Shown: positions 9,836-63,095 of the stretch, piece after piece
Layout: every line of letters starts with the position of its first letter
Numbering within the stretch: position 1 is the first letter of the stretch
From: Petrosia ficiformis
Taxonomy: Eukaryota > Porifera > Demospongiae > Haplosclerida > Petrosiidae
Direction: 5' to 3'
Length of the DNA: 64,000 nucleotides
NCBI GenBank assembly: GCA_947044365.1
Contig: OX345636.1
Span: forward strand, 3,616,001 to 3,680,000
The notes under the pieces: model-generated
The model's database searches: none
What the model saw: the letters and a program-made list of their open reading frames with translations, nothing else
What the model was told of the DNA's origin: nothing
Made by a program: the position numbers and the translations under genes

Positions 9836-10070
9836 ATGAAGCAGATTTTGCCAGTTTTGCCACTCGCCGGTTCTCTACCTTAACGACAATTTTGGCCATC
9901 TAGCAGGTGTTGGTAGTCATAAAAACACTATATATGAATAGGTATGTGTGTATTAAAACGTATATGTGTATATTACCAGAGATTTCACCTCATCATTTGC
10001 AATTAAAATGTATGGGCGACCATTTTTTTTCTGTGCCATCCCTACATAGAGAGTACTACCGTACTCTCTG
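9836..10070 (-). repeat. ~230 bp repeat, inverted copy
   Basis: The reverse complement matches each of the two tandem units at 16218-16676. Shared words include GTACGGTAGTACTCTCTATG, a cATACCTATTCATAT core and GAACCGGCGAGTGGCAAAA. Confidence 0.85.
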
Positions 10071-22137: not shown

Positions 22138-22634
22138 CTATTTAGAATGTATGGTAATTTTAGAGACTAGAAAACACAATTTATCATCATTCATATATTT
22201 GTCTTCCAGATCATTATGACATAAAAACTTTAGTTCAAAACCTATAAATGTGAAATCTTTTGAGTGTTTATGTCTTTTATCTGCACTATATTGTATTGGT
22301 ACAACATGCTCCACATGTTCCCTATCCTCACTCCAGTTGAGCAGTTGAATGGTAATCTCACCATTGAAATTCCTTTTAAATCTATTGTCATTCTCGTCTA
22401 AAACTACCGCCACAAGGACACTTACATATTCACCTCTACCATCGCTAATGCCATTAGCGAATGGTCCTAAAAATAACTGGTATCCCCCAACTTCTGTATA
22501 GAATGGTTGACACCTGTATATATCTCCAACTCTTTTATTCTCACTAAAGTTGTACATAGTGAGAGTACATGGAGGGAGGAGGTATGGAATCTCGGTTGCA
22601 GGTTTAGGAATGTACCAATTAGGCACATGTGGAC
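22138..22634 (-). CDS. Death-MATH gene exon 14: MATH domain 5 and stop
   Basis: A terminal exon of 165 codons plus the shared first codon. It keeps the lead-in VPNWYIPKPATEIPYLLPP and the core GGYQLFLGPFANG, EYVSVLVAVVLDENDNRF and ITIQLLNWSEDREHVEHV, then ends KITIHSK followed by TAG. It is the most divergent domain: GTH is replaced by GEY, and MKGE..D by LDEND. Confidence 0.9.
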
Positions 22635-25600
22635 CTATAACATAATAAACAAATATATTATATCAGTATTAATAATGATAAGTTATGGGTTTGCACTAAG
22701 GAATATACATAAATATTAGTTTGTAAGTTTGGATATAATATTTCGTACAGTAGCATCAGTTTGCTTGCTATAGGAATAATTATCATTACTTTTAATAATT
22801 ATAATGTACACTCATATCTTTCAGCTATTAGTCAATTTTTACTAGGTTCATTTATTTACCAAGCCTTCTTAGATGATAGAACTTCCTTAACTATTCCTAA
22901 AAAAAGTGGTATAAGAATGATGCTATTTGCTATTAAAGAGGCTATCTAGCTACCAAACTAATTAAAATTTGTGTTCTGCAGAGTGTAATATATAAAGTAC
23001 TTCTAAATCCAAACCAGTGTATGAGTAATTGTTTAAATTATAAATGTGTTCCTTGTGTTACAACTGGTCATAGTATTGTATTCATTTGGTTTCATCTAAT
23101 CACATTATATTACAAATTATATTAGTCTGGTTGAGATATTATGGTACAAGACATTATCTAGCTAGGCAGACATGAATCTACCTGTATGCATGCACATATG
23201 TTATATATATTACCTGTATGTACAGTCACTTTAGACACTCTGAAGCACAGTGTGTCCTTATTGAGATATTCTGTGTTGTTACCAGCATTATACTCCAATT
23301 CCTTGTGAGAGATGAAATATTGTATTATTGCAAAATTTGGTGCTCTCTCTCCATCTACCACTCTTGTACGAGCTGCTATTCCTACCCTATAGTGTGGAAT
23401 GATCTTCTCCACATGTCCTTTATCCTCCCTACAGTTGAGCACTTGAATAGATATTTCACTATTGAAAGGCCAATTCAATGACTCATCGTACTCCCCCTTC
23501 ATGAGGCTTACACCTACACTTACATGTGTATCTTTACCACTATCCATCCCATTGGCATGCACGATTAGTTGTAGTTTATATCCGTCTGGTCCAGAGTAAA
23601 AAGGCGGACTGAACCACTTATCACTAACACGCTTATGTTCATTAAAATTGAACATCGGTAATGTACATGGAGGGAGGAGGTGTGGGGACTGAGTTTCAGG
23701 AAGGACATACCATCTTGGTGCAACTGCATCTATGATAATAAATATAACAGTAAATACAGAAATATAATCATATACTTACATAATTATATAGTAACTTCAA
23801 GAAGTAAAGTAACTATACGTGGTGTAGTATATTTATAACATTTTACCATTGAGACTATAAGTACTGTGAAGAAAAAGCTTTAACTGCAATAAAGCAAGCA
23901 TATTACAATGACAATGATATATAGAAATGCATTGTGCACAAAAAAAAAGATGGAGATAACTGCATTTACTGTACTCTTCGATAGGAGGTTTTCTGATGTG
24001 CATGAAAGGAGTGCTGTAAGGAAATGTAACAAATAGAAACACGAGGACATGGCATTTCATAATAATATTGAACATGCCATATCTGTGCTCTTTCACCAGT
24101 ATCCTAGTAAGTTTACATCACATTTCCTTAGAGGTTCATCCATTTGAATAGCCATGGAGTGCCCTTTCAATCATGCATCTAAGTTATTTAGTCTCATTTT
24201 GGAGTTATAACATCGTACGTCTGCAACATGTTAACTGTTTTCTTAGTTAACGTTATTTAGTAAACCCTATGATAGTACGCAGCGCATACATTAGGATATT
24301 CACTGACATTCTGTAAAATTGAAACTGAATAATTATTATCATGTAACAACTGGAATTAAACTGTTTAATCAATCACCTAGCATGCTTAGTATATAAAAAT
24401 GCAGTATTTCAATTAAGTCAGGAAATAATGCAACAATTATGTATATAAATACCAATGTATAAAATATATATCACAACAGTAAATTAGTATCCTTCCTAGT
24501 TTTTCTGCATAGTGTAGTTATTTACTTAAATAAAGACATTGTATACCAATCCAAGTGAAAGATTGTTGTGTTGCAGACTGAAGCAAAGAAAGAAAGAGGT
24601 TTTGATAGTTTGAAACCTTGGCTATCTCTTTATTTGTGATTTCTTTCATTGTTGTAAAAATTAAGTGGATCTTCAAGAGTGAAATGATTGGTACCAGTAT
24701 GGCTTTGATTTTTGGACAGCCTTAAAGCAAATGTAGTGGACTGTCTGGTTTAGAAATTTCTTACAAAACATTTAGTATCAAAACACTTCAAAAATGCAAC
24801 CATTTGTCCATTTCATATCTTTAGATATCACCAGGAGTTACACATTAATTGATTTTGATGTCTGCACACATGAACAGGAAATAAAAGGTAATGTTATATA
24901 TGATATCACTCAAATTTGTTGCAATCAATAGTAACTTCATAAATATATATCAATTTAGGTATCCAAATTAAGTAGAGGGGAGGTTAGTTGTTGTAAGATG
25001 CTAATGGTAATACTCCAACTATAAGTTGACAAAATGGGAGAATAATAGAAAGGAGTTACACAATAATAAATAGGTATTGATCAGATAACAGCTGATGCTG
25101 ATTGTTCAGCAATCATTCTATCAGTGCTAGCTATAAATAATTCAGGGCTGTTGTTAAATGTGTGATACAAATATTGATTCGTATTACCTGTATGTAAAGT
25201 GACTTTTGAAATTTCAAAACACAGTATGCCATCTTGAAGATATTTGATGCTCTCATCTGGATTGCACTCCATATCGATGTGAGAAATGAACTCTGAATAA
25301 CCAAAACCTCTACCCTCTTTATCTGTCGCTCTTGTACAATTCTCCAATGTTGCAGCAGAGTAGTCGAGAATGTGTACCACATGTCCCTTATTCTCCTTCC
25401 AGTTAAGTAGTTGAATAGTAATTTCACCCTTGAAGGGCCATTTCAGCATCTCGTCATGTTCACCTTTCATCAGAATCACATAGATGGAAACATGTGTGCC
25501 TTTACCATCAATAGTACCATTAGCATGAACTTGTAAATAAAATTTATATCCATCCATTTCTGAGTAGAACGGGTTGCTATACCATATTTGATTAACTCGC

Positions 25601-28600
25601 TTATATTCATGAAAATTGAACATTGATATAGTGCATGGAGGGATGAGGTATGGCGACTGTGTACTAGAAGAAATATACCAGCTTGGCGCATCAGGGCCTG
25701 TAATAATAAATATAATTGTCAATAGTACAAGAACAGCACTGATATAATTATTTAACAATAATGTTATAATACACTATTTATTATATAGCATGTCAGAAGT
25801 CACTACGAGATAGAGCACATATACTGAATTTTAACGATTGAGTATATATGCAATTCTATAGCATTGGTAAAATTATGTAACTGCATGTATACTAATTAGT
25901 GGAATGAATCTAAATGTGTTTTGTATCATTGCAGAAGTCATATATAATAAAATTTGAGCAAATGCACTGAATCTACATGATTGAGCATATATACAAACAT
26001 GTGGATGTTCACTTTATTTCGCATAACAAATGAGTGGCCAATCTTGATGGAATTAATCAAAAACAGAAGGTTTCAATCTGTTAGATGACAATCCAAAGCT
26101 GCTATACATGTACGTCAATACAAGCAATGTGTAAATTATAGAAGTGGTGATCTTTTCTTAGGTGATTTTTTCTTAGCAATCACTGTGTCCATGCTTATTG
26201 CACAGAAAACATGCACATTTTCTTTACCCCATTACCAACAACTAAAACTCTTTATATAATATCTGAAAATAGTCAGGAAGTTAAGTAGGGATTGAACCCA
26301 GATCCTTGTAATATCTCTGTAGACATCATCAGACCCACCAGACTACCTTCATGGCTGAGTAGTGTATGATTCATAGGTGTATCTAGGCATGGGCAGACCA
26401 GGGCACTGCCCTGGTGAAAAATTGTAATTATAATACTTGTATAAATGGGAAATTAACTTATGATTATTGAATACTAGAGTTATTGCACACCGAAAATGCA
26501 GCATGCTGTCAAAAAAGGTATAGAAAATCATTCTGTAGTACGTATCAGGTCTATCTAAGTTTATTCTCAGACTTTGGCAGCCATAATTTGCTAAGGGTGT
26601 ACATAGTTAATTATAACACCCAAGAATGCTCCCCATTTAACTAATAGCTAATTAAATAATGAGCCCTGGCAGTTCATAATGATTTGATATGCCTATGGTA
26701 GGATTGTACTAATCCCAAAGCAAGATTTAAACCTAGTTATTTCTAACTCTCTCAACTAAACAGTGTAATGAAAGCTTTCTTTGTGATCCCTTTACCAAGA
26801 ATCATAAATTATGTGCCATTAGAATGAATAGACAACATTTCAAGTATGACCAGAACAATCATGGACATCTCCATGCACCCACAATTCAAACACTGTTGGT
26901 ACACATACCTGAAGTCTACATAGCAAATCATTTATTGGCCAGTGTTAGGCAAACTAAGAACACAATGCCAAACCACACACTCCACCCCAGAACACAACAC
27001 AAGCCCCGCCAGAAGATTGAATGCATAAGGCTTGTGCAAGGCATTATAATAGAAATAGAAACAAAGAATAATGGGAGGGCACTTCATGTACATGTAGCTA
27101 TGCTTGCAGTGATTCTTCTTCTCTTGAAGTATATGTACTAGATTCTTCTTGAACACTGTTTGTGAAATATTTTTAACTTTTATTATATTATTCATTGATA
27201 ATAATTATAGGGAAAATGCCTGCTACTTTAACTGTTAATTAATTAAAGTATACGCCATCCTATAACCATAATGCGAAATCTAGTATTAGTGGAAGATGAT
27301 TTTAAACATCATAACAGAAATGCAAGTATATAAGTAGTAACATTTCATTGGGTAAAAAATTGGAATTTGAAAATGTTTGGGGAGGGCCTTGTGTAAGTCT
27401 TATGCACAAACCTTTCATAATAATTAGTATGTATATGTGACCGGCTCTTAGTAATCCAGGTTTAGGGATTCCAATTTCAAACATTTTTTTGTCTTACTTA
27501 ATTAGAGCATTAAATTACCCCTAGAATAGCATATCAGGCATCCCAATTGAGATAAGACAAAGCCACAACAAACGAGTAAATTGTTTGTGTCATTAATCTT
27601 CCATATAATTGCATATTTTTATGCTCAAAATTGTATTTTAATCTATAAGCCTGGTTTTCTCAGAGCCAGTACTATAATTATGGTTTGACTTATGATTTCA
27701 ATATATTTTTCATAATCATAATTGTTTGTCTGCATGGAAAGAGATTCTTTTCAATTTGTTATTATTATTACCAAAACCCCCACCCAAGTACTATGCAAAA
27801 CAAAAAACACTCTAGTTGGATTAGTTGCATGCAATGGAAATGCATGAGTTATTGAATGACATCACTTGTCACAAGTAGAGGTGAGGTGAATATGAACCGT
27901 TTTCAAATTAATGTTAATGATATTTACCTTTTAGTAGATTAACGTTTGACACATGGAAACACAGGCTGTCATTACGAAGATACTCCGTGCCCTTGTCACT
28001 GTTGTATTCTAGATCAGTCTGGGAGATGAACTGATTTTGAAATAAACCATATGGTGGCATTATATCTTCAAGCATTCTTTGCCGACAGTCTAGTGGGGTA
28101 CTATCGTTGAAGGAAATAATTCTCTCCACATGTCTGTTATCCTCCCTCAAGTTGAGAAGTTGGACCGTAACTTCAAACTTTGCAGGCCAGTCTAAGTTGT
28201 CATCATTCTCACCTTTCATTATAAACACCCCTGGAGACACATGTGTACCACTACCACTGCCACACCCGTCAGCATCAACCACTAATTTTAACTTATATCC
28301 ACATTTTGCTGTGTAAAATGCTGGACCATGCCATCTACACTTAACTCTCTTGTATTCAGAGAAATTCGACATGGTTAATAGGCATGGAGGAAGAAGATGA
28401 GGGGATTTGATGGCTGGATATGTGGACTTGTACCAACTTGGTGTAATGACATCTTGACCTGTAAGTAAAATTAAAAATGAAAATTAATATATTAATTATT
28501 GTGTTGTTATAAATGTTATGTTCAAAGGAACATGTGATTGATACAATAATGATGTTATGTACCTCCCTACTATATAAATAAATTATAGTGTATCCTGAAA

Positions 28601-31600
28601 AATCTGAAAAGGATGATCAAAGGTGAATCTTTGCACACAACCGTACCACAATGCAGACAACAGGATTGGACAATGAAATTGTTTACACCACGTCACAGCA
28701 ATAATACTAGCTGTGTACCTGTAATACTAGGGCTGTGTAAAACTTTAACTCCAATCTTAATGCTCTGAACTGAAATACTTAAAAGCTTATTGGAATTATA
28801 TCTGAAACAATAGTTCTCTTTACAACGAAGCTGAAAGAAATGTTGATGTGCAAATCTTATTATTTCGCAAACTTAAAAAAAAAAGGCGGTGGACACTTAT
28901 AATAGCTGCTTTCGTGATACATTGATTTTAGTTTCTGCACTACAACATTACACGTATTTGTACAAGTGGAAATTGTATGAATGTTTCAAGAATATCTGAC
29001 CAGGAGCCCATAATGACATTGATCAGAAAGCGCAAGTGTAGGAGCAGCAGACAACCAAGCATTTGGTCAAACTATCTATCTGACCGTCTTTTGTTATTTT
29101 AGAATCCACGTGTATCCATGCCTTGGTTAAAATTATGGCTTCTAGAAAATGAACAGCTACTACTAACTTACAGTGGAAACATTCGATAACAAATTTATTC
29201 GATTTGTTAATACACAACTTTTCACAGTCAAATTTCCGTGGGCACAGCAGCAAATTGTATTGCACATGCATATTGGAATTACAATAATTATTATTCTGAT
29301 ATTTATGTTAGAGTTTTATGGCAGCAAGTCGAATAACAAATAGTTTATTAGTTAATACAAATCGATTATATTGAAAGAAGATAGATAACTAACTTAGTCT
29401 AACTATACATAAATGAACTGATTCCTTATATAGAAGGATCTACAGAAACAACTAGAATGTTCTACAAAAACATGTGCATAAGAAACTTCTAGAACAAATC
29501 ATACAACAAAAGTATCAAAGCATATCACACAAACACCTACAAACAATCTAGTTTTAAAGTGTTAATTCCAATAATTTATTACATGTACATACACAGGAAA
29601 AGCAAGCATGTTTGAGATCTAATCCGGAAAGCATGTGTACAAGAAGATCTGGGATGCAGTTGTAGAAGATAAATTAAAGTGTGAGAGACATATCCAATCA
29701 TCATTATCAATTTGCTATTGCTGTACTTAAGGATAAAGTCACACTCTCAGAGAAGTTTTCTCTATATTTTTGACTTATGGTGGATCTATTAGATGTTGAG
29801 TTACAGCTAGCAGGTGTTATTCTGCAGACCTATCACAAGGTGGCCTCGAAACACCATGTGTATAGAAATAGATACGCCTGAACTTTTTTTATCAGAATCC
29901 TCTCCAATAAGAAGAGGCCGACCTCTTTTTTTTTTTTTGTCAGAAGCTTCTTTGTAGCATTTTTGTCACCTCACCATGACTCTTCTTCAATTCAAGTGTA
30001 TAAGCCTTTCTCCATTCACATACACTTCAAATTGGGGTACTTTTTGGCATAATATGGAACAGTAAAAATTACACCCTCCTCCACTCATTTTTGCCAATCT
30101 GGGATTTCTGCTCTGTAGTATACTTAATATATGTTCCTTTTTTAAATTAATCACTGGATGGAGTTGACAAAAGCTATGGAAGAGCAAAGTATGATCCTGT
30201 ACCATGGGGATCTTGTAGCCCATGATCCTGATCTTCTTTATTAGCAACAGGTTTAAAATAAGCAATTATCTGCACTTTGCTGACTATATAAAATTATAAT
30301 CAATTATCATGTGTCCGGGTGTGGACTATACTCTATTCACGTTCAGCAGTCGCGAACGTTTTTGGTTATAACTTACTTATACATCGTCATATTGACACGA
30401 CCATGCTACTCGTCGTAACTTGCCGATTCCTACAATTTGCAATATGATCACGAATCATAAACTATACGAATTGTAAAATTAAGCTCTATGCTTAAGGACA
30501 GGAAGTCCTAAGAGCACAAAGATACTTGAAAATAAGTAGCTTATAAGTAGATACTATGTAATAATAATCTGCAATTAAATATATATCTATTCTCCATCAT
30601 TACTGATGCTGCCATCTGATTCTGAATTGCTACTTTCTTCTTCTGAACACTCATTTGATTCTCCTCCAAAATAAATAGAAACTCCTCTATGTATTCTTCT
30701 TGTATCTAAATTCAATAATTTACACAGTGAAATTCGTCCTCCTTTAAATAACATCTTCTCATTTAGAACCTGCAGTAGCTTGTCCAGTGTTGAATACTCT
30801 TTTTATTCTCACAAAACTCACGTACGATACGATGAATAGTATCAATATCAAAGGCATCAACATCTACACATTCTCTGCTTTACTTATATCTCTTATTTGG
30901 TGATGTAAAAGAACTTCCATCCAGCTCTCTTTTCTCCAGTAGGACACGATTGACAGTGCGCTCTGAGAAGCCAGTGGCTTCAGCAGTTTTCTTACATAAC
31001 TTTGGTGGAGTGGACTTCTGTTTTTTACTTTGCCGATCAAAATATAGTCATGTACATTGCAAATAACACTCTTCGAGGTGCTCTTAACTCGTTTTCTCTT
31101 TGGCATTGTCAATTGTATATACAGATGCAGGTGGCTAATCACAGCAACAGTTTATCTAACTTTCCTGGCAAGACATGCAGGTACACACGAGGTAAGTACA
31201 ACCTCATGCATGTGAGAAACCACAAACAGGCAATAAGCTTATATTCCAACGATGCAATTCTTCCGCTGTTGCCTTCCGCGACTCCTGAATGTGAATAGAC
31301 TATAGTCTGGTTAAATCTTCGCAGATTTACTCTGTGAAAATATGCCCCTCAAAATGTTTCTGGTATAATTATGTCTACGTTGCCTGTAAAACACATTACA
31401 GAGAAAGAATTGAATGATAATATGAATTGTGTAGACTGTGAAAATATTACTTGTGAAGCAATTGACCAAGCAGTAAGAAGCCTTCACTGCAATCACTTCA
31501 ACCACAAAAGACAAACGCTCTTGAATAGGACTAAACAGTTGTTTCTCACCTTTCCAACACATGCTCTCACTTTTCTGATAGTAGGTGACTCTATTTCTGC

Positions 31601-34600
31601 CACTAGAAGTGTTTGTTTACTAGCAAGGAGATCTGGGATGCAGTTGTAGAAGATAAATTAAAGTGTGAGAGAGACATATCCAATCATCATGATCAATTTG
31701 CTATTGCTGTACTTAAGGATAAAGTCACACTCTCAGAGAAGTTTTCTCTGTATTTTTGACTTATGGTGGATCTATTAGATGTTGAGTTGCAGCTAGCAGG
31801 TGTTACTCTGCAGACCTATCACAAGGTGGCCTCGAAATACATGCATATACAAATAGATAGGCCTGAACCTTTTTATCAGCATCTTCTCCAATAAGAAGAG
31901 GCCGACCTCTTTTTTTTTTGTCAGAAGCTTCTTTACAGCACTTTCATCACCTCACTGTGTCTCTTCTTCGATTCATGTGTGTAAGTATTCTACACACACG
32001 TGTTGGGGTACTTTTTGGCATAATATGGAACAGTGCAAACTACACCCTCTTCCACTAATTTCTTGTCAATTTGGACTTTCTGCTCTTTATTATGCTTAGT
32101 ATATGTTCCACTTCTTTGATCACCAGAGGGAGATGACTTCAGTTCTGCCATTGATGCTCTCGCCTTCAAGTTTGCAGAAGCTATGGAAGAGGAAAGTATG
32201 ATCCTTGAAAGTATACCATGGGGATCTGGTAGCTTATGATCCTGATCTTCTTTCTTAGCAATAGGTTTAAAATAACAATATATATAATTAATTATCATGT
32301 ATATGGGTGTGGACTAGTCTGGTTAAATTTTATTTAATTCAACCGTGAATATATGCCCCCTCAAAATGTTTCTGCTCTAAGTTTCCTGTAAAACATGTTA
32401 CAGAGAAAGATTGGATGATAATATGGGTTGCATAGACTGTGAAAATATTACAAAGTAGCAAGAAGCCTTCACTGCAATCACTTCAATGACAAAAGACAAA
32501 CACTCTTGATTAGGACTAAACACTGGTTTCTCACCTTTTCCAAAGCGTGCTCTCGCGTGATTCTAATTCTGCCTCCAGACATGTTTGTTTACTAGCCAAC
32601 CTTGGTGATCTTCGAGGAGTAGATGCCATATTTTACAAAGGTGAGGTACACATCATCATGGGTTGTAAAAATAGTAACAGATGGTTAGACATAATCAATT
32701 TAATTAAATGTGTGGTAGTCTGCCACTCCACTTTCTGGTCAATGTCATTATGGGCTCCTGGATCTGACAGAATTTTGAAAAACCTCTAAGGGTTAAAAGC
32801 TAGCTGAAGAGATTTTCTGAGCATACACATTTTGTATAGTAATTAGTTAAAGCCAGTAATAGTGCTTGAAATCTTCTAAATTTCCAGAGAGAAATGGAGC
32901 AAAATATTTCCCACTTTTTACTTTAACAAACTCATTACAATTGGGCACAATTTGGTTAAATGAGCTAAATGCATGCACTATTTAGGGCTGTATGGAAATT
33001 CCAATAAAGCTACATTTGTTGTAATTACAGCAGGTTGTTGTTAATTTGTTAATTTGTTATTAAAAAGGTGTTGTTATGTTGCTACGAAAAGACACTGTTC
33101 ACTCATTTGTATATATGGTTGTATGTTTCTGCACTACACATTTCAAAGCATGAAGTAGTACTCCATGTCGGAAAAGGAGCCAAGTTTGGGGTAGAGAAAG
33201 TGAACGGTGGCCAAAATATATGCAATAGAGTCGCCAGTGTTGGAAGTGGGAAGAATTTTGAAAACAAGCTCAGTCTTCTAAGGGTTAATTAAACATAACG
33301 CAAAAGGAGATTAGAATAGCATGTCGATGTATGTATGATGCATAGACTTGCTTTCTAGCTAGTTCTAGTAAGACAGAAAGAGACATTAGGAGAATAAGTG
33401 AAAAACAGAGTTCGCTTGCAGACTTGGCTGGATGCTGTGTTTGCAGTAATCGGTAAGCAAGGTTGAGGTGACTGTTAGATTGCTCCAGGAGGTCTAGAAA
33501 GTTGTATAAAACCTGCACTCTGTATTGCTGAGCCACACCGCATAATAGCTTGACCAAGGTGGGTGTGGTTATAATAATTATGTGGTTGCAAGATTGAAAG
33601 GGGAATACAGGTTAAGGAAGTTGCCTATTGCGTCATTTGTGGGACTTAGTCAATTAATAGGCATGGTGTGTACGTGCTATTGAGATACAGAGCATGATCG
33701 TAGCTTGCATAGAACTACAATAGCTGTTCTATCTGAAATACATTTCTAAAGTTCTATAAAAAATCTTTTAAAAAGTGAGTAGAGTAGATAATCAATAGGC
33801 GGTTCTGTTTCAGGCACGAAAAAGTCACCCAACTAGTAAATATTGGACAATTGTAGGGACACCTTTTTCTCCATATATGCTATTATTTGTAAATGCTCTT
33901 AGGAATTATAAATAGTTATCACCTGCAAAGTTTATGATATTGGTTATCAGTTGCAAATAGTTTGCAACTGATAACCAATAGTTTATAATTGTACTTTATG
34001 TATTAATTTTATAATCATTGTAGCCAATTGATGGTATATACATAGTCATATTATAGTTTTGGAGTATATGCAAGTGATTTTCCTTTACATAGCTTATGAT
34101 TATTATTCCTTAATATCAGTTATTGAATTAAGGCAATTGATTATTGTTCAATGCTGATCAGCAAAATATATAAGTGACTGCATGCAAAATATGATCATGT
34201 CCACATTTCTAAAATAAAGCAAAAACATTTAATACCCGTGATTTTAGCACCCATTATTGAATAATTATGTACAATCTAATATCAATTCTTCAGCATACTC
34301 GATATTAATTTCACTTCCTGTGCTAAAAAGTGAGCTATTGAATACAGGCTGAAATGATTTTGCTGGAAACTCACAGTCTGAATTTGGTAACACAATTATT
34401 ATAATTGCCGAGGGCCTTAGTGCGAGGCATATAAATCATGCAGTGTGGAGGTTGTATCTCAGCTAGCATATGTATAATATATTTTGTCTGCATTCAGGAA
34501 TCCAATTAAAACAAAAATAATTAGTTCCGAGACTTTTAGACACTCGCCTTGCTGCTTTTGTTTGCAGCTAACGGAGAATGATTTTGGTATTTCTGGCTTT

Positions 34601-35121
34601 CTTATAGAGTATTCTGTCTAACACAAGTGACTATTGGAGTTAGAGGGAATTTTGTCTTGCAAGACTGCCTAAGCAAACATTCCAATTGCCAACGAGAGAA
34701 GGACATAGGAGGATCAGCCTCATGTATAATTATGTAACTGTAGCATGAAATCAATTGGGCTCCTGCAATCACCAAGGGACAAAAGGAGAAGGCTAGATAG
34801 GTAGTAGAGACGTTCTCATCATGCGCTAGGCTGTTCCTCGGTGTTTTCATGAAGAGAGTTCTGATGTTAATACAACAATTATATAATCCCCTTTGTTTCT
34901 TGTATTTCATGTATTTTACAAATTGTCTGTGCAAGTAAACTTAATATCTTCACTCTCGAAGCTAATTATATATGCTTATGTGTGTGAGGCTGATCTGCAT
35001 ATATATTATGCCTAGTAATTATTATGCAGTCATCATATTATTATAATAATAATGTCACGAATCTATTGTCTATAGTCATTTCCAGAAAATGCTGAAAATT
35101 ATATAGTGTCTGGGGTATATA

Positions 35122-35167
<46 letters not shown>

Positions 35168-38100
35168 ACAATTTTGATGATAGCATAGATTATATGTCAC
35201 ATAATACTTTAAACAATGCATGCACTGAAATGATATTTCTGTTACCTGTTACTAAGGTCACTTTGATAACTTTGAACTGCAGCATATCGTCTCGAAGATA
35301 TTGAGTGCCTTTCTCTGGGTTGTAGGATAGATCACTATGTCTGATAAACATTCGGCAAGACATGCCTCCAATTGCTTTTTCTCCAGTCGACACTTGGTCT
35401 AGACAATATGAGGGTGCCATATTGTGACTGAAGATTTTCTCCACGTGTCGTGTATCCTCTACCGAATTGATAAGCTGGACGTTAATATAACCTTCAAAAG
35501 GCCATTTCAACTGGTTGTCATTGCGGCCCTTCATAAGATATACAAAGACAGAGACATGTGTACCTTTAGCACTAAAGAAACCATTTGCATCGATTCGTAG
35601 CTGTGCTTTGTATCCATTGGGTGCAGTATAAAAGTGAGGGCTATACCAGGACTCATCGTTATTTTTGTATTTGGAGAAATTATTCATCACTATTTTACAC
35701 GGAGGAGATGCTAAAAAAATTAAAAGGTTATACTCGTAATTACACGATAATCAAAATGAAATGCTATTTACCACATGATGTATGAACAATCATTATAATT
35801 ATAATTATTTTTGTATTGAATTCTCAACTCTAGGAATTGTTATATAGAGAACAGGTAACTCTTTTAAATTATGTCTTGTAAAACCAAAACCTCCTCAAGT
35901 TTGTCCCATGTTTTGGTGCAATACTAATACTACTTTTTGCATAGCACTTAATGATTAGGATCACCATTCCCAGGCTTATGAAATTTTAAAACACCTAATT
36001 AAAGGGGCACATGTCAATAGCTTACCTTTGCTGGCAAATCCCTGACTTTCAATCTCAGTCTGCTTCAATTTGGCATCTAGATGGCATGAATATAACATAA
36101 ATTGCTACACTAAACGCCTCATTCTTATTACCCATCAAAGGAAGTGCAGAAGAATGTTGGCCCAAGTATTCACTCTTTTGTGATTGTTCACTTGTAATAG
36201 GATTTTGCTTTGATTCAAACATTGCAACTATGTATAAAGATCATCTGTAATGCATATAATTATTATTTGTATACGAATTAACCTTTATTGTGAATTCCAA
36301 ACTGAAATTTTGATATTTCAGACTCTTGATCGTTGTTCAGTTCTTGAACTGGTGCTAATGTACAAAGAAAAGAATATTCTCCAATATTAGCTCAGTATTG
36401 ATATAAGCAGCAAGTAATATAATTAGCTATTAGTCTCATTATTATATTTATAAGCTGCATGAATGTAATTTTCTATCTGGGGTATGGAATTTTTGATTAT
36501 CCATACAACAAAATTATTTACATGTTCATTTTACCACAAAATATTATAGGTTTAATGAAATAGGAGTGCTCCCACATTAGAAAGATGTTGAGGCAGTTGG
36601 TCTCAGTCAGAGGAACACTGTTTCAGCTAATAAAAGTTTCAGATGAGTTCAAATATTTGTGCTTACTGCACCACATGAATTTGCCCTAGTATTTACATTC
36701 ATTAGGCATTTAGTCCTTGTTCTACTGCATACATTTATCATTCAGTCGGGCAGCATTAATGATGTCCATAATTATCTTTATAATAATCATCGTCATTTAT
36801 GTGAAACATTAATTTTGCGTCAATACCTTTTCTCTGATCGGACAGTTTTTTTCTTGGTGTTGGCACTGGTAATTTCTTCTTTTCCTTCTTTTGTTCTGCA
36901 ATTAACAACAAGCACATTTGATAATTTGTGACTCATATAATATAGTCAGTCAATATTGATATTGACTTCCATCAAAAATTAATCAGCTATTTGCATGCGG
37001 TATATTGATCAATGCATGTTGGGTGTAATGCAACTCACGTAAATCATGTACATACAAATCCACATTTTCATATATCGATGTTTCTTCTGCTTCTACTACT
37101 GCAAGATGTATACATATTTTGAAGTCATAGCAAGTTAAATATGAAACAATTATAACTATTTTTGTAATAATTTTGATGTGGTTAGCAATACTATAATTAG
37201 CTCTCGATTATTAGTATCACATTATTAGTATCACATTATAATAATGAAATTTTTATTATTATTATATTATCTTATATTAAGAGTCGTGTTGTCTGTGTGG
37301 AGACAGCTAATTGTATAATGGTATTAATAATCATAAATCCTTTAACAAACATACTTAATTAAGAGCTTTAGACAATAGACGTCTAACATTATAGATATAA
37401 ATGAAAATAATTATAAAAACATAATTATTATTATAATACATAATGGTGAGTTACAACCTAAATTTTACTGTTTTGTTTTCATGATAAATATAATAGAGGC
37501 TATTTTATATGCTCACTGCATGTACAACATTCATTCAACTATATATGATCTCCTCAGTCCATAAAGAATGGTATCTACAATTAATATTTTAGTAATGCCT
37601 CGAGAGATTTTCTAAAATAAATTATAGCTGAGAAAGTGGTCCAACATATATAATTATTATTTCAGTGTAGACAGAAGACTTTGTTTCTTTCAATTAATTA
37701 ATGCATTTTTAAAACCTCTTTTGGGATGTATTTCTATTCATTGCTTAATATAGTTCGACAGCATATAAGTGAGTTGAATAATGATACTTACACTCACATT
37801 TGTAATTCAGCCCCAACTTTAATTTTGTCCCTACCCCAACAACACATATTATAGCTACCTTGTTTCATGTCTGGCATTTTTTTTCTTGGTGTTGGTACTG
37901 GTAATTTCTTGCCTTTCTTTTGTTGCTCTATAAAGAAAACATTTCTTATTTAACATTTAAATAAACATGTGAGCTCACTGTTTTTGCTCATAGTATTATG
38001 CACACAAATTACCTTGCACAACAGAACTCCTTGCATTATCTATTGGTTCATCAATGTCTGGTGACAATGGTAAAGTTTGCTTCTCGATTGGTGTCTCTGA

Positions 38101-39182
38101 ATCTAATAAAATATTGTTTATTAAGTCACAACTGTTGAAAAGCTGGTTTGTGATTGTGCAAGCTGAAGTAACCAGTTTGGCCATATAAAAATTATGGCTA
38201 TCAAACTACTTTAAGTATACATGTCATGAATATATATACAATTATAATTTTTAATAATCATAATCATCACTAAAATTTACAAATGTAAAATTATAATATA
38301 ATTCATCCTTTGTAATATCAAGAGTAATATCCATAGTAAGGTACCTTCTCATTCCAATTTCAAGGCATTAGTTTTAAGATATCATGTAGCTAATATATGT
38401 AAATTATTTGTAAGTGGGCCCAGATAACTGATGTTCAGAAATATAAAATGGAAAATTCAACTCAAATTATACAAATTTCAATGGGCTACCTGTCTCCTCA
38501 GAGTTAATTTTCAAGAATGTTGATGATTCTTTAGTTGCTTTAAGATTCACACATATTTAAAAGAAAAAGAAAAGAAAGTATTAATTTTGCAATAATTATT
38601 GCAATAATAATTATTATTCTGTTACAAGTATACCTTAACAGTTCAATCAGATATATTACAACAAATCAACAGCAAGGAAAAATAAAACAATGAATAAACT
38701 CACATGGATGATTTTTGGCAATATCATTTGCTAATCCTTTTTTGTCTACCAAAGGACTCATTAAAGCATTAGCAAGTACTAGCCATGTTGCACTTCCAGT
38801 ATTGAGCCAGTACTGGAGCATATTACGGTGTCGCTCTAAAAAAGACTGATAATCCACTTGTATTTTATTCAATACAGGAGGAGGTATATCAAGCTCAAGT
38901 CCCAAGTTATACCAATCAGTAATTGTATGGGTAGCTCTCAATACTGCACGCAAATCTACATCTGTATCAAAATGTGACAGATACCAATTATTATATAAAG
39001 TATAAGTATGATATTATTACAGTATGATTATAATTATTATGCAAATACCATAATCCCATTATTTAATATGGTAAGTGAGGAAAGTGGCCTTTTCCTGCTC
39101 TTTGATAAACAAATAACATTTACGTACCTTGCAGTATTTGATCATCTATAGCTGGTAATTCAGATGGCTTTGCAGATGCCAT
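22138..39182 (-). CDS. Death domain + five TRAF-type MATH domains; 14-exon adaptor-like gene
   Basis: Reconstructed exons (minus): 39182-39128, 38961-38704, 38537-38490, 38102-38013, 37927-37859, 37098-37039, 36895-36827, 36354-36283, 36076-36026, 35710-35246, 28458-27928, 25697-25188, 23729-23214, 22634-22138. They join into one open frame of 1096 codons from ATG 39182 to TAG 22138. Every splice is GT-AG and every intron is phase 1. Domain order by residue: Death ~19-105, proline/tyrosine-motif linker ~105-258, MATH1 ~258-413, MATH2 ~413-590, MATH3 ~590-760, MATH4 ~760-932, MATH5 ~932-1096. In known families Death domains assemble receptor complexes and TRAF-C MATH domains trimerise and bind receptor tails. 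No RING, TRAF zinc finger, signal peptide or membrane segment is seen. A cytoplasmic signalling adaptor is inferred. The array could instead be two neighbouring genes divided in the 6.8 kb intron, but no stop or new start supports that. Confidence 0.8.
23214..23729 (-). CDS. Death-MATH gene exon 13: MATH domain 4
   Basis: A 172-codon exon with lead-in APRWYVLPETQSPHLLPP and core words GYKLQLIVHANG, THVSVGVSLMKGEYD, LNWPFNSEISIQVLN and TLCFRVSKVTVHTG. The acceptor is ATTTATTATCATAG and the donor GTAATA. Confidence 0.9.
23990..24150. mobile_element. Diverged copy of the 2.8 kb fold-back MITE (intronic)
   Basis: It shares TTTTCTGATGTGC, AAACACGAGGACATGGCAT and AACATGCCAT-like words, in the same order, with 2810-2990. 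The arms are decayed. It lies in intron 12 to 13 of the Death-MATH gene. Confidence 0.5.
25188..25697 (-). CDS. Death-MATH gene exon 12: MATH domain 3
   Basis: A 170-codon exon with lead-in APSWYISSSTQSPYLIPP and core words GYKFYLQVHANG, GTHVSIYVILMKGEHD, LKWPFKGEITIQLLNW and ILCFEISKVTLHTG. The borders are clear (ATTATTACAG acceptor, GTAATA donor). The open frame runs past both splice sites but is intronic there. Confidence 0.9.
26285..26357 (-). repeat. tRNA-derived SINE-like segment (intronic)
   Basis: The minus strand has a B-box-like GGGTTCAATCCC preceded, about 40 bases upstream, by an A-box-like TAGTCTGGTGG. This is the spacing of a pol III internal promoter. No intact cloverleaf folds by eye, so it is probably a SINE head rather than a functional tRNA. 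Confidence 0.4.
27928..28458 (-). CDS. Death-MATH gene exon 11: MATH domain 2
   Basis: A 177-codon exon, the longest of the five. It starts with the lead-in TPSWYKSTYPAIKSPHLLPP and continues through the core words GYKLKLVVDADG, GTHVSPGVFIMKGEND, LDWPAKFEVTVQLLN and YLRNDSLCFHVSNV. The acceptor is TTTTACTTACAG and the donor GTAAAT. WPF, usual at the core, is WPA here. Confidence 0.9.
29645..30310. mobile_element. Transposon fragment, copy 1 of a duplicated pair
   Basis: It is near identical to 31628-32310. It starts GATCTGGGATGCAGTTGTAG, includes ACTCTCAGAGAAGTTTTCTC and AAGAAGAGGCCGACCTCTTT, and ends near a TATTAATCAATTATCATGT-like segment. Both strands carry eroded transposon coding sequence. 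Confidence 0.75.
30590..31107 (-). pseudogene. DDE-transposon N-terminal helix-turn-helix remnant
   Basis: The minus strand starts at ATG 31107 (MPKRKRVKSTSKSV). After a frameshift it reads KTAEATGFSERTVNRVLLEK and SFTSPNKRYK, then, in another frame, FDIDTIHRIVREFCENKK. This order (helix-turn-helix, SP-K-R linker, FD.D.I...) is typical of the N-terminus of a widespread invertebrate DDE transposon family. The remaining catalytic part is missing and stops and frameshifts are present. Confidence 0.6.
31371..31775 (+). pseudogene. HIRAN-like mobile-element protein fragment
   Basis: The first frame reads MSTLPVKHITEKELNDN... through CVDCENITCEAID. From about 31627 a shifted frame reads IWDAVVEDKLKCERDISNHH and DQFAIAVLKD. 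That pattern (W.A..GE.L.C.RE..N..D..AVAV..) is that of HIRAN-type domains, which recur in transposon-linked invertebrate proteins. It is truncated after FSLYF. A partial copy is at 32340-32600. Confidence 0.45.
31990..32298 (-). pseudogene. Transposase helix-turn-helix fragment
   Basis: The minus-strand frame contains KLPDPHGILSR, SSSIASANLKARASM and YTKHNKEQKVQIDKKLVEEG, then YYAKKYPN. The order (LPDP.G.LS, SSIA.AN, KYT.EQ.AQIGK.A.E.G, .F.K.YP) is a known invertebrate transposon N-terminus. The homologous 29987-30265 is more degraded. No catalytic domain remains. Confidence 0.5.
33150..33292 (+). repeat. Transposon segment also present at 41.4 kb
   Basis: It shares CCAAGTTTGGGGTAGAGAAA, ATGCAATAGAGTC and AAGCTCAGTC(T/C)TCTAAG with 41395-41543. 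Parts of both can be translated as short, non-matching frames. Confidence 0.65.
33939..33979. repeat. Perfect 19-bp hairpin with 3-nt loop
   Basis: Arms 33939-33957 and 33961-33979 are exact reverse complements (ATTGGTTATCAGTTGCAAA) around TAG. It lies in the large intron. Confidence 0.9.
35246..35710 (-). CDS. Death-MATH gene exon 10: MATH domain 1
   Basis: This is a 155-codon exon with the TRAF-C/MATH signature: FYTAPNGYKAQLRIDANG, GTHVSVFVYLMKGRND, LKWPFEGYINVQL, YLRDDMLQFKVIKV. Unlike the other four it begins directly at SPPCKIVMNNF and lacks the ~25-residue PSWY...PP lead-in. The donor GTAACA follows KVTLVTG. Confidence 0.9.
36026..38537 (-). CDS. Death-MATH gene exons 3-9: linker with signalling motifs
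   Basis: Seven short phase 1-1 exons of 48, 90, 69, 60, 69, 72 and 51 bp span this interval. Exons 5 (37859-37927) and 7 (36827-36895) have equal length and nearly the same product, each with KKLPVPTPRKK. That is a proline-arginine motif of the PxxxPR type known to bind CIN85/CMS-like SH3 domains. Exon 6 (37039-37098), between them, carries SIYENVDLYV, where YENV fits the YxN preference of Grb2-type SH2 domains. Exons 8 and 9 are acidic/polar and similar to each other. Exon 3 has the weakest acceptor (no clear pyrimidine tract), and exon 8 has a non-consensus GTTAAT donor. Alternative exon skipping would keep the frame throughout. Confidence 0.7.
38704..38961 (-). CDS. Death-MATH gene exon 2: Death domain
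   Basis: Its 86 residues carry the six-helix Death pattern. The landmarks are TDWYNLGLELDIPPPVLNKI (helices 1-3: W, LG, L.I), then YWLNTGSATWLVLANAL (helices 4-5: W....ATW..L..AL) and a final helix ending LANDIAKNHP. The tryptophan-rich LG.x.LGI start is characteristic of this family. The exon ends at GTGAGT. Confidence in the fold is high. Binding partners are unknown. Confidence 0.9.
39128..39182 (-). CDS. Death-MATH gene exon 1 (start codon)
   Basis: ATG at 39182 opens MASAKPSELPAIDDQILQ and stops after one base of the next codon at a GTACGT donor. That base (G) plus the AT of exon 2 restores an aspartate. An acidic/proline stretch directly before a Death domain is a plausible native N-terminus. 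The upstream frame has no further support. Confidence 0.8.
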
Positions 39183-39734
39183 GATGTACCAATGTGGAAC
39201 CCAATCTGCAAAGTACATGGTAATTACAGTCATAATTGTAATAATGTGGTAACAGTTTAAACCATTATGAGTAGCAATATATTATTATGAATAGATGTAG
39301 GATTAACCATCCTAAAGGTGTTTATAATGTCAACAGAAAGACAAACATTCTCCTTCTCGGAAACATAATGCCAAGAGCAGAACAAGAACCACTGATCTTC
39401 GATCAAGAGGCCAAGTTTAATAATGCACACATAGGCCCTGGTGGCCGCAAGTTTAATAATGCACACATAGGCTACGCTAGGATGTTTTTAGTCAGAATGA
39501 CTAACCACATACACATATGTGTATTAATAGACCATAGTCTTTTCACTAATGTAGGAAACCAAAGTTCTATTATACCTATACAGGCTTAAAGTGTCATCAG
39601 AATCTGCAGAGTTGTAAGTCCACTGGAAAGACCAGAATTTGGACCTTTTAGACCTGTCTGACAGGGACAGAGACAGTATTTTCAAAGTGCAGTGGTGCTA
39701 AATAAAAATTATGTTGTATATATGACCACAGTGG

Positions 39735-52604: not shown

Positions 52605-55600
52605 TCAAACTTCTCCAGTCCTTTTGTGTCTAACTGCAAGTCCTTGTGGAATAGCTAATGATAATTCTGATACAGCCTGAAATAGATAACCAGAGAAATA
52701 ATCATTACTGAAGTGTTTTTCAGTCACTAGTCCCGTTGTGCCCATGTTACAGTTTCTATTGTGAGGAGCTCTGTCGAAGTAGTGTATCAGCAGTGTTAAA
52801 TAAGCTAACATCACATGTCTAGTACCTCCCATTACTCCTGCATTACGAAAAGGATAACGATTTGCTGCATCACTATTGATTTCTGACTGATGACACGGTT
52901 TTAAAATCCTGTTGCCAGCCCAGCTCCTACGTAATGAATGGTCAAATGGCTTGTCCATTCCCATGTACAAGTAATCTCCAATTACATCCCTAACCTTAAA
53001 AGGATCTTTCAGAAATATGACATCCCTACAATCTGTCAGAAGAACTTTATTGATTTCAGGATGACTTAGAAGATAGTCATATTCTTCATAAAATCTTGCA
53101 TCATTGGTACTTCTCCCATTTAGACTGTTTACTTTTACAAATTCGACATGTCCAGGATATAGTTCTATTAAATTATTTTGAAACTGTTCATTCAGGCTAT
53201 CTTGAAAGATAACAAAATGAACTCCAAACTGTTTACCAGTTAAAAACCATGCTTCAAAGAATTGAAATAAATTTGGTAGAATATAATAGCTCTTATTAGG
53301 AACATTCTTTGAAATTGTGAAATAAGTCAACATAATAACATTCTTTTTTGGAAGTTGAAGAAATGTGGAATACTCACTAATCCATTTCTGTGTTTTGATA
53401 TTATCTGGATTTGTTGTAATCATGTCAATGGATATATCATTTCCCCAAACTTCTGTACAATGTAATCCACTACATTTCATTGATACAGTAATTCTTTCAA
53501 TTGTATCAGCAATGAATACTTTATCAGTCAATGGATGATATGCAAAACCTGATCCTTTCCCTTGCCATGGCCCATAAATGCCATCAAGTTTTAGTGTTGC
53601 TGTACTAAATTTATTACTATGTTCATAATAGTATAATGATAGTTCAAATGTTTTCAATAATGCTTTTTGAATGGAAGGTAGTTTATTATCTTGCAGTGTA
53701 AGAAATAAGAACTTCAAAGGATAGGATTTTGCCTCCTCCAATAAAATTATAAAATTCACTAGTAATTGTGAAGATTTCAGATAATTATATAAATCATTTT
53801 CTTCACTTTTCCCATCAAATAGTAGAGAGGGTACATAAATTATAACACCTTCTTTATGTTCATTTATTAATGATTTTACTATTTTATCATCAGTGAAATT
53901 CACATATTTGGGGATTAAACCTTTTCCACAAGTTTATCTCGTCTGTACCAAGTCATAGGTTCTAATGGTAAGACAATCAAATCATCTCTGAGTGTTACTT
54001 GATATCCCGTATCATGAAGACCTAAAGCTATTCTTGAACCGAGGAAACTAGTACTACCAATAATAAGTACATTTGGACTAGTCAACTGCTTTGCTGAGAT
54101 TGTTTTAGAAACCGTAGAGCTATTTGGTTTTATCTCAGGACCATCTGGTTTTGTCCGAGGATCATTTGAATTTATCTCATGACTATTGGGTTTTATCTGA
54201 GTACCATATGGTTTTATCTCAGTACCATTTGGTTTTATCTCACCACTCTTTGGTTTTATCAGAGTTTTTGATGTGTTTTCCCAGTGCTTTGTAACTGAAA
54301 CAGCTTCTATGGTGACATATATTATGAAAATATAATGAACACACAATATGTATATAAAATGTTTGCCTCCATTTTGGAATACCTATATAACTATAAGTAT
54401 AAGGTGTGGCAATGCATGTGTCCAGGCATCCCTAGGATTTTACTCTTGGCTCTCTCTCTGAATCAACATATTGACTTACCATCTTGTTTTATGCGATAAT
54501 ATGAGGTTGATAATAGGTTCTCAAATGGGTGTTTAACTGAAATGGTAAATCGTTTATTATGAAATATACGTTACATTGTAAGTATATGGATGTAATGTGT
54601 GAGTGTAAGCAATTCTTAGTTTGATAGTCACTGAAACAATGTTATGTTAAGTAAAAAAAAGTTTAATAACCAAGGACACAAAATGAATATTTTAGTTTAC
54701 AAAATAAATGTTTTTTCTGGGCATAATGCAAAGAACAAACTCGCACTTTGACCGGACAAATCTAGTGCTTATATTAATTTTCTTAATAACTACATTATCA
54801 ATGAATAAATTAAACATTAAGAATTATTAGTCTGACTAAACGGTTACAGACACTATCATGGTAAGAGAAATTGGCTACCAAAAATTAATATTATTTTGTT
54901 GAGATATAATATCTTTTTCATGGAAAATATGATAGAGATGGAATTGAATGTTTTGAAAATATTTTGCAGTAAGCTAAATGACAGAATCTTATAAATGTTT
55001 ACTTTATCAGCTAGATAATCACACACAATGATATGTACATTTGCACTAGTCACTTGCTGTGCTCAGATTTTGAATAATATACAAAAGATGACAGATTTTC
55101 ATGAAATAATAATTACGATAATCACACATTTAAAAGATAGTTTATATCACTGCAAAATTTAAATTCAAACAATTATTGGTTAGTGCAGTTACTATGAATA
55201 GCATAAACTTCAATCTAGTTTGTAATGCAGGTTTTTGTGGCTACATGCATGATATTACTAAACATGGATGAATCTTTACATGACATACATACTTACGTTG
55301 AGGGTTAATCGATTTTGTATTTATATCCTTCATTATAATTATGTAATAATGTATTACAATGATAATTAAAGGTTTGACATGTCAGTTACGACCAGACCTA
55401 TATGTACATGTGTAAGTACCAAGTACATGTACTAATGCTTTGATTTCAGTACTTCCCAGATAGAAGCATTTGTATTTGGTTAGAATACTGCATCCATTAA
55501 ATACACAGTTAATGAACTTATTCCTGGAGGTTGATTGTGAAAACAACACATACTCAACAGTTGAGGATCGAGTTACAGAGTACAGGCCAGTACAAATAAA

Positions 55601-61800: not shown

Positions 61801-62245
61801 AATAGATTTTTAACTACTTACTTCACAGCTTCCTATATCGCTTCCTAACATGCAATTGAGAGCTTCTATATAACTAAGTTCACAACTTAATTCTTTGTTG
61901 TGTATAATTTTAAAAAGCTTCACAGCAGCATGAAGCATGCATGTTTCTTCAGCTCATATAGCAGTTTGATGTGGCTGCTGTTCAGTATGCATGCATACAG
62001 CAATCATGAACATAAAATATAATAAATTCAGAACTCATGCAAACTCCTCCTATACAGAGTTTTAACATTCTAGCTTTTCAACTTCACACCTATATATGTA
62101 TCATGGATAACACGTTTGAACGTCAATTATTATATAATACAACAAGTTCAGTAAATTAGCAGAAGCTGCACTTAACATATTTTCTCTTTGCTGGTCTTTT
62201 TCTAACAAATCCTAATGATTGAAAGTGAAACCATTGGGGACAGGG

Positions 62246-63095
62246 ATCCCAGGGCCAAGATGAGATAGGTAAGAAGATACATCTATTTTGGACTGAAATA
62301 TACGATATATTACGGCCGGATGATCCACAACTCGAAAATATTAGAAAATTACTTCTGGCACTTCATTACGAAAGACCGATTACAGAGTTTCACCTGGAAC
62401 TTGAAGGCACTCCTTTCCTGTTCCCAATCTTGTGCAAATTAGTATATCTCGATGAAGAAGATACACCACGATCATATCTATCTGTCAGGCCTTTCTTGAT
62501 CGAACAAGCTATAACAGGGTTGTCTAAAAAGATTGGTGCAAAAAGCGATGAGCCTGCTGCCATCGGCTATTCGTATGAAATTTCTGTGTTACATTTAGTG
62601 TCTGAAACAGTTCTTTATACTATCACTTCAGACAGTAGTGATTCAGTAGAAGAATTAGAGCTTCCAATGCTGGCAGTGGTACCAAAGAGATTTGTTGTTG
62701 AATCTTTCTCCAATTTTACGTCCCTGCCCAGTAGCCTAATATATATGACAGAAAAAGGAACGCAGGCTATAGATGCTTTTGTGAAAATAAATGATGATAG
62801 TATTGTTTTGATACAAATATCAATACAAGCGACTAATAATACAAAGAAAGTGGAGTCAATCCATGGTACACCAACATTCTTTCGTCGTATGTTTGAAAAT
62901 CATGTGCTGAATATATATTATCTGTACCTTAATCCAATGTGTGATGACGCAATTGATCATCTTAAAGATTACTTTTTTGCTGCACTTCCACAAAACGTGA
63001 ATACCGACTCCTTAACCTGGCATTTTTGTATGCCCAGTAGTCCTGCCAAATTTATGACCGAGTACTGTCGAATAAAGAGTATGATGAATCTATAA
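62246..63095 (+). CDS. Unidentified protein, possible PD-(D/E)XK-like nuclease fold
   Basis: The frame is open from about 62246 (after a TGA at 62238-62240) to TAA 63093-63095, about 280 codons. There is no ATG near its start, so it is probably a terminal exon. It begins DEIGKKIHLFWTEIYDILRP. A segment QAIDAFVKINDDSIVLIQIS has the D...(x)n-I.LIQ spacing seen in PD-(D/E)XK-type domains, including those of Crinkler-like and similar effector-type families. The C-terminus ends TWHFCMPSSPAKFMTEYCR. No transmembrane segment. Family membership is a guess from the motif alone. A mobile-element origin is possible. Confidence 0.4.

Follow-up and report, generated by a model that had tools for sequence, protein, structure and literature searches.

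The window analysed here, a stretch of 64,000 nucleotides at positions 3,616,001 to 3,680,000 of chromosome 1 (contig C1) in the 191,215,263-base genome assembly of the haplosclerid demosponge Petrosia ficiformis (other contigs are named likewise, for example C13), carries on its minus strand a predicted gene that joins a Death domain to five tandem TRAF-type MATH domains. We read this gene, with moderate confidence, as a predicted recognition scaffold in which a Death head precedes a series of diversified MATH grooves, within a large and reshuffled sponge family. The original prediction had placed the same domains in one gene, which profile matches to PF00531 (Death) and PF21355 (TRAF-mep_MATH) bear out. 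It had also suggested that the product could act as a preassembled, multivalent scaffold in an early animal lineage; the window gene is, however, no lone ancestral scaffold but a single member of that family.

A predicted Death-MATH gene

Minus-strand GT-AG splicing connects an ATG at 39182 to a stop at 22138 through 12 coding exons, with phase 1 at every internal junction. The uninterrupted frame proposed earlier between these two points stands, although its product is 1056 amino acids (aa) plus stop and not the roughly 1096 first estimated. The exons are predicted to form one mRNA, and the paralogues described below support the joined Death-MATH model. The gene is laid out as follows, in window coordinates.

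39128..39182, minus strand: coding exon 1, with the start codon at 39182, MASAKPSELPAIDDQILQ; start exon kept in paralogue L063
38704..38961, minus strand: exon 2, the Death-domain exon; PF00531 23.8 bits; 72-74% identical exons at five array places
38013..38102, minus strand: linker exon S, 30 aa; from splice sites and phase-1 frame alone, the weakest part of the model
37859..37927, minus strand: linker exon C, KKLPVPTPRKK; from splicing, and repeated as exon C2
37039..37098, minus strand: linker exon V, AEETSIYENVDLY; from splice sites and phase-1 frame alone
36827..36895, minus strand: linker exon C2, KKKLPVPTPRKK; from splicing and likeness to exon C
36026..36076, minus strand: linker exon K; from splice sites and phase-1 frame alone
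35246..35710, minus strand: MATH1 exon; PF21355 87.6 bits; seven TRADD-N-class genes have a first MATH 66-68% identical to it
29679..32538, no strand: repeated DNA in the 6.8-kb MATH1-MATH2 intron; direct repeats of 176, 96, 89 and 62 nt
27928..28458, minus strand: MATH2 exon; PF21355 68.8 bits; the second MATHs of these seven TRADD-N-class genes are 62-64% identical to it
25188..25697, minus strand: MATH3 exon; PF21355 92.4 bits
23214..23729, minus strand: MATH4 exon; PF21355 81.4 bits
22138..22634, minus strand: MATH5 exon with stop TAG at 22138-22140; MATH_2 54.4 bits, PF21355 51.1 bits

The start exon of L063 is 72% identical to that of the window gene over 18 aa (9934-9987 of the locus, C1:6,826,333-6,826,386) and is preceded by an in-frame TAA three codons 5' of its ATG. 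At the other end of the gene, MATH5 is 45-53% identical to array MATH exons whose match continues into a stop. Linker exons C and C2 agree at 53 of 69 nt, their adjoining flanks at only 15/30 and 8/30, and this likeness, which stops at the splice sites, supports both as coding; a possible homologue of exon C in L063 lacks the KKLPVPTPRKK motif. The start-to-start distance from MATH1 to MATH2 is 7.3 kb in the window gene versus 1.5-1.6 kb in seven paralogues. The direct repeats at 29679-32538, spaced about 2.0 kb and 0.99 kb apart, are probably inserted mobile DNA, and their insertion could account for the longer intron.

The joined product contains five PF21355 stretches with a combined score of 361 bits (cut-off 27.4), and the nearest solved structures to MATH1 are those of TRAF5, TRAF2 and TRAF3 (expectation value, E, 3e-14 to 5e-14). 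The profile comparison suggested in the original prediction succeeded for PF00531, which exceeds its cut-off on the exon, and not for the MATH model PF00917, which reaches 17.1 bits against a cut-off of 21.2. As a search model PF00917 found no matches in this genome nor in 14 control genomes and therefore shows nothing; PF21355, which does match, is the right model. The claimed lack of RING and TRAF zinc-finger domains was confirmed, in that a Pfam scan of the 1056-aa product up to E 1 returned no RING, zinc finger or BTB domain, and the protein has no cysteine N-terminal to MATH1. Neither PF13820 nor PF09034 matched in that scan, and a TRADD-N-type query had no match within the window, the nearest lying outside it at C1:3,701,297.

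Scored alone, the Death exon reaches 23.3-23.8 bits with PF00531 (cut-off 22.6). When it was aligned with eight homologous exons of the same genome, all nine members matched Death at E 0.01 or better, a result that is partly by construction because several of the eight loci had been fetched by Death-profile search. Among solved structures, the profile built from these nine exons finds the Death domains of RIPK1 (E 5.6e-6) and FADD first, followed by THOC1, PIDD, TNFRSF25 and ankyrin. The identity of the window exon as a Death domain thus derives in part from its relatives in the same genome. Folded by itself, the exon gave a prediction too uncertain to be used (predicted local distance difference test score, pLDDT, 61).

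A MATH family with several heads

At least 150 places in the genome score above the PF21355 cut-off (150 of 350 candidates); counted by hand, 75 of them fall on C1 at 6.1-9.6 Mb and 38 on C13. An array on the minus strand of C1, at 6.26-9.30 Mb and 2.6 Mb from the window gene, holds 140 MATH exons (from lists merged by hand). It was divided into 47 blocks, comprising 32 with a RING/zinc-finger-coiled-coil head, eight with a TRADD-N-type head, five with a Death head and two with no head found; some of these blocks may join or split genes, and two MATH2-like exons were added to a later count. At least one MATH follows 29 of the 32 RING-type marks, and three follow in 20 of those cases; among the 32 marks, six match weakly (24-39% identity). 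The RING heads score under the Pfam cut-off (17.5 vs 27 bits) and share 41% identity with the part of the TRAF-like protein P0003 that spans its RING and first zinc finger. Sub-threshold matches of the array coiled coils to Bacillus_HBL were taken as chance coiled-coil similarity and set aside.

The TRADD-N-type head is a 224-aa exon, found at eight array places at 59-100% identity, one of them with an internal stop. The exon itself is sub-threshold in Pfam (13.9 bits) and is called TRADD-N-type because it is homologous (E 3.4e-24) to C1:33885639-33886283, which scores 26.5 with PF13820 against a cut-off of 22.5; it also has a helical N-terminal part. The genes so headed carry five MATHs in six of the eight cases, with six in another and three in the last, and in none of 100,000 trials of a placement simulation did all eight heads fall so close to MATH exons. 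Each of the five array Death heads is followed on its own strand by three or four MATH exons, with no intervening head.

Two further features of the genome were noted. The TRADD-N-type exon has 139 matches in the genome, and most of the 131 beyond the array lie on C3, C5 and C8, constituting a larger expansion. On C13, MATHs with long open frames are again densely clustered at 5.00-5.17 Mb (L011, L014, L016, L024, L025, L027, L029, L030), and L026 at 5.42 Mb also belongs to this second cluster.

Probable exchange of heads and MATH exons

The front of the window gene resembles one class of the array and its head another. Window MATH1 is 66-68% identical to seven exons (next best 54%) and MATH2 is 62-64% identical to seven exons (next best 58%). 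One set of seven TRADD-N-type genes supplies both groups, as their first and their second MATH. In all seven, the TRADD-N-type head lies 3.6-4.6 kb 5' of the MATH1-like exon and the MATH2-like exon 1.5-1.6 kb 3' of it, so that head, MATH1 and MATH2 constitute a conserved unit. MATH1- or MATH2-like exons are missing from all five Death genes of the array. In a tree of 20 MATHs, window MATH1 and MATH2 each pair with their counterpart in the TRADD-N-class gene T6898 (support 100/100 and 100/99, respectively), and MATH3, MATH4 and MATH5 are left without a resolved placement. By sequence, the window gene unites a head of the Death class with a MATH1-MATH2 front of the TRADD-N class.

A second case lies within the array, where the first MATH of the Death gene D8267 shares 89.1-92.5% identity with one MATH in each of five TRADD-N-class genes, the third in four of them and the fourth in the other. 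Since near-identical MATH exons sit behind different heads, the heads have probably been swapped between MATH chains in this family. Death, RING-coiled-coil and MATH exons have phase-1 boundaries, so that swaps across them would keep the frame; the TRADD-N-type exon seems to end in phase 0.

Variation at the MATH groove

Variation between MATH copies was compared at groove positions and elsewhere using two residue sets. The wider set includes positions 399, 400, 448, 449 and 466-468, which we take to be neighbours of the TRAF2 groove. Its remainder, and the whole of the narrow set, are the ten TRAF2 residues that, according to excerpts of PMC6125299, hold the receptor peptide, namely F410, L432, F447, F456, C469, S453-S455, R393 and Y395. 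Two classes of array copies were used, one of 12 copies of one MATH exon (nine from TRADD-N-type genes, three from Death genes; median identity 89%) and one of 16 copies of a second exon (12 RING, three Death, one TRADD-N type; median identity 83%).

With the wider set, entropy was 0.84 at the groove versus 0.19 elsewhere in the 12-copy class (reached by 0/50000 random sets) and 0.88 versus 0.36 in the 16-copy class (40/50000), the permutation treating alignment columns as independent. The five window MATHs, compared among themselves, gave 1.87 versus 1.04 (0/20000). The ratio of nonsynonymous to synonymous substitution (dN/dS) was 0.98 at the groove versus 0.42 elsewhere in the 12-copy class, and 2.00 versus 0.42 in the 16-copy class. 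In strand beta3 of both classes, positions 393, 395 and 399 vary and 394, 396 and 397 hardly do; exceptions are 392, which varies too in the 12-copy class, and 391 and 400, which do so in the 16-copy class. The narrow set gave an excess at the 5% level in three of four sets, being matched by 140/50000 random sets in the 12-copy class, 23/50000 for the window MATHs and 569/50000 for nine MATHs of the C13 cluster. The variable positions may form a ligand-binding groove, and their variation may have been selected for recognition.

The ligands would probably differ from those of familiar TRAFs. The hot spots for PxQE ligands are conserved in TRAF1, 2, 3 and 5 according to excerpts of PMC6125299. 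Nine TRAF2 hot-spot residues were checked (not L432); MATH1 keeps five (R393, F410, F447, S455, C469) and MATH2-5 keep none, in a comparison whose loop register around TRAF2 453-456 is uncertain, and ordinary TRAF ligands are therefore not expected. By comparison, L002, a MATH elsewhere in this genome that looks like one of a canonical TRAF, keeps seven of the nine, all but S454 and C469.

Proposed mode of action

In the mechanism that we propose, the diversified MATH grooves would each bind a peptide ligand, and ligand binding would gather the Death domains and their partners by Death-Death assembly. The head would decide the outcome, with RING heads leading to ubiquitin transfer and Death heads to death-fold assembly. 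Having no RING, the window protein would signal through its Death head or compete with RING-headed sisters for ligands. We think that such a coupling of MATH chains to heads may be likened to the nematode MATH-BTB proteins with their Cullin-linked ubiquitination.

A broader proposal, to which we give somewhat less than even weight, is that these genes form a hypervariable intracellular recognition system of the sponge, in which MATH grooves diversified by recombination and selection would read self or foreign peptides and swappable RING, TRADD-N or Death heads would choose between ubiquitination, adaptor signalling and death-fold assembly. The window gene would be the Death-headed five-groove form, with sisters carrying TRADD-N and TRAF-MATH on one polypeptide.

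Evidence against and alternative explanations

A number of observations weigh against reading the window gene as a recognition scaffold. Its exons are joined by predicted splicing, with linker exons S, V and K backed by frame and splice sites only. The Death domain scores 18.3 bits, under the cut-off, in a scan of the whole 1056 aa; the window exon alone retrieves no significant solved structure (FADD at E 0.63), and the Death exon of the close paralogue L063 alone scores 16.5 bits, also under the cut-off. When five exons were placed at random in the array, all of them came to lie no more than 16 kb from a MATH in 2.8% of trials, so that by spacing the Death-to-MATH linkage is only moderately improbable by chance. 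The wider groove set goes partly beyond the published residues, and a shift of the set by two residues lowers the score little, in the 16-copy class even raising it (0.87 and 0.81 vs 0.73). The narrow set misses the 5% level in the 16-copy class (3053/50000), the groove dN/dS of the 12-copy class is about 1 and not above it, and copies were compared for this excess within the array, the window gene contributing its five MATHs against each other.

Two of these points bear on neutral turnover of the array, an alternative that we consider rather unlikely, in which copies and head mixes are by-products of recombination and the groove positions vary through loss of constraint once the canonical TRAF ligands had been lost. 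Besides the groove dN/dS of the 12-copy class and the failed narrow test in the 16-copy class, it draws on the array MATH copies themselves, in which all four allele combinations occur at 397/1128 and 929/2556 site pairs, indicating much recombination and pointing to exchange of short segments between copies. Turnover of this kind accords poorly with the groove dN/dS of 2.00 in the 16-copy class, where dS is unremarkable (reached by 3798/5000 random sets), and with the scarcity of broken frames, an internal stop being present in four of the 150 scored MATH places.

Alternatively, the window protein could be a RING-less decoy TRAF, its MATHs titrating ligands away from RING-headed sisters and its Death domain a minor tether that takes no part in assembly signalling. 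The RING-type mark on 32 of 47 array blocks (six of the 32 weak) and the lack of a RING match in the window gene speak for such a decoy. We nonetheless hold it to be unlikely, as the Death exon shares 72-74% identity with those of five sisters and so exceeds MATH1 (66-68%) and MATH2 (62-64%) in conservation, which argues for a function of its own.

Lastly, a division into two neighbouring genes, in which a short Death gene would span 39182 to about 36026 and the tandem MATHs would belong to another gene that begins at MATH1 or earlier, could be drawn from the 3 kb between Death and MATH1 that predicted splicing bridges, from the three of five short linker exons with frame and splice sites as their sole backing, from an in-frame Met at residue nine of the MATH1 exon, at the domain edge, and from the other MATH types with which the array Death genes open (MATH1/MATH2-like 0/5), yet it is improbable given that a head exon precedes the same MATH1 in seven of seven paralogues, that the MATH1 acceptor carries on the phase-1 frame of the linker, and that exons C and C2 are alike in exon and unlike in flanks.

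Other features of the window

Immediately 5' of the start codon, at 39183-39206, WVPHWYI stands in frame after a possible splice acceptor and resembles the linker that opens the MATH2-5 exons (for example APSWYI and VPNWYI); the start exon may perhaps derive from an old MATH exon, or a further exon may lie upstream. The PxPxPR and YxN motifs of the linker, which we presume to be SH3- and SH2-type ligands, respectively, were not built on, as the candidate linker exons of L063 lack them. Two other open frames, of 442 codons on the minus strand (52608-53933) and of 288 codons on the plus strand (62229-63092), have no Pfam match at E 0.001.

Comparison with known systems

The original prediction held that the window protein fuses the two halves of the TRADD-TRAF contact. 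The likeness to TRADD is that a Death domain occurs in a protein that has to do with TRAF-type MATHs, and by sequence a Death domain as in a TRADD-type adaptor appears to be present, with scores marginal in places. However, excerpts of PMC8195603 state that TRADD recruits TRAF2 through its TRADD-N domain, that is, by binding the TRAF2 MATH in trans, and the window gene has no TRADD-N match, so the proposed fusion of the two halves is not borne out. Unlike TRADD, eight paralogues of the window gene carry a TRADD-N-type module before their MATHs.

With the vertebrate TRAF1-6 the family shares the TRAF-type MATH and, in the array sisters, a RING-like/zinc-finger and coiled-coil head. Each of TRAF1-6 has one MATH, whereas the window gene has five, with no RING found and the hot spots mostly not kept. 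As a candidate TRAF E3 adaptor the window protein thus presents the TRAF-type MATH and neither the RING nor the TRAF zinc fingers, and its MATHs depart from the hot spots of the TRAF1/2/3/5 ligand class.

The closest sponge precedent is the Amphimedon expansion of Death-like plus TRADD-N proteins (NCOA6 clade; eLife 2021;10:e70394, PMC8195603), which, in the excerpted account, is likewise large and combines a death fold with variable C-termini, MATH among them. The Amphimedon unit is Death-like plus TRADD-N, whereas in the window gene Death stands before MATHs and no TRADD-N, the mark of that expansion beside the death fold, was found. Apart from this statement in the excerpts of PMC8195603, we found no Death-MATH fusion described in the open-licence papers surveyed. 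A protein-collection search with the Death part (residues 1-110) returned no relative among 115 candidates and no Death-MATH protein of another organism, a word-prefiltered result that is not evidence of absence, the search scoring only proteins within a length range that share words. P0001 (1013 aa, ENA) has five tandem TRAF-type MATHs and is 31% identical to the window protein over 79% of the latter; it differs in having a zf-TRAF match (27.5 bits, cut-off 27) and no Death domain.

Nematode MATH-BTB proteins are described, in excerpts of PMC4334554 and PMC5392922, as expanded, under positive selection in the substrate-binding domain and suggested to act on foreign proteins. Their outlet is Cullin-linked ubiquitination, while the Petrosia heads are RING-like, Death or TRADD-N type and the MATHs tandem, with no BTB in the scanned window product.

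Implications

MATH among the C-termini of Amphimedon Death-like/TRADD-N proteins and the five-MATH protein P0001 were known already; what is new is the behaviour of the family behind the window gene. Its MATH chains, placed behind varied heads and most variable at the likely groove, would make it a candidate recognition repertoire. Petrosia also departs from the remark, in excerpts of PMC8195603, that an expanded TRADD-N set is not accompanied by a matching expansion of MATH in the same organism. If the reading is correct, two adaptor halves that vertebrate TNF signalling brings together in trans would be combined in cis and shuffled within one sponge array, and the TRAF-type MATH, a conserved adaptor elsewhere, would have become a diversified recognition surface in the sponge. 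The family would then constitute a sequence-level candidate for a repertoire of microbe or self recognition in an animal without adaptive immunity.

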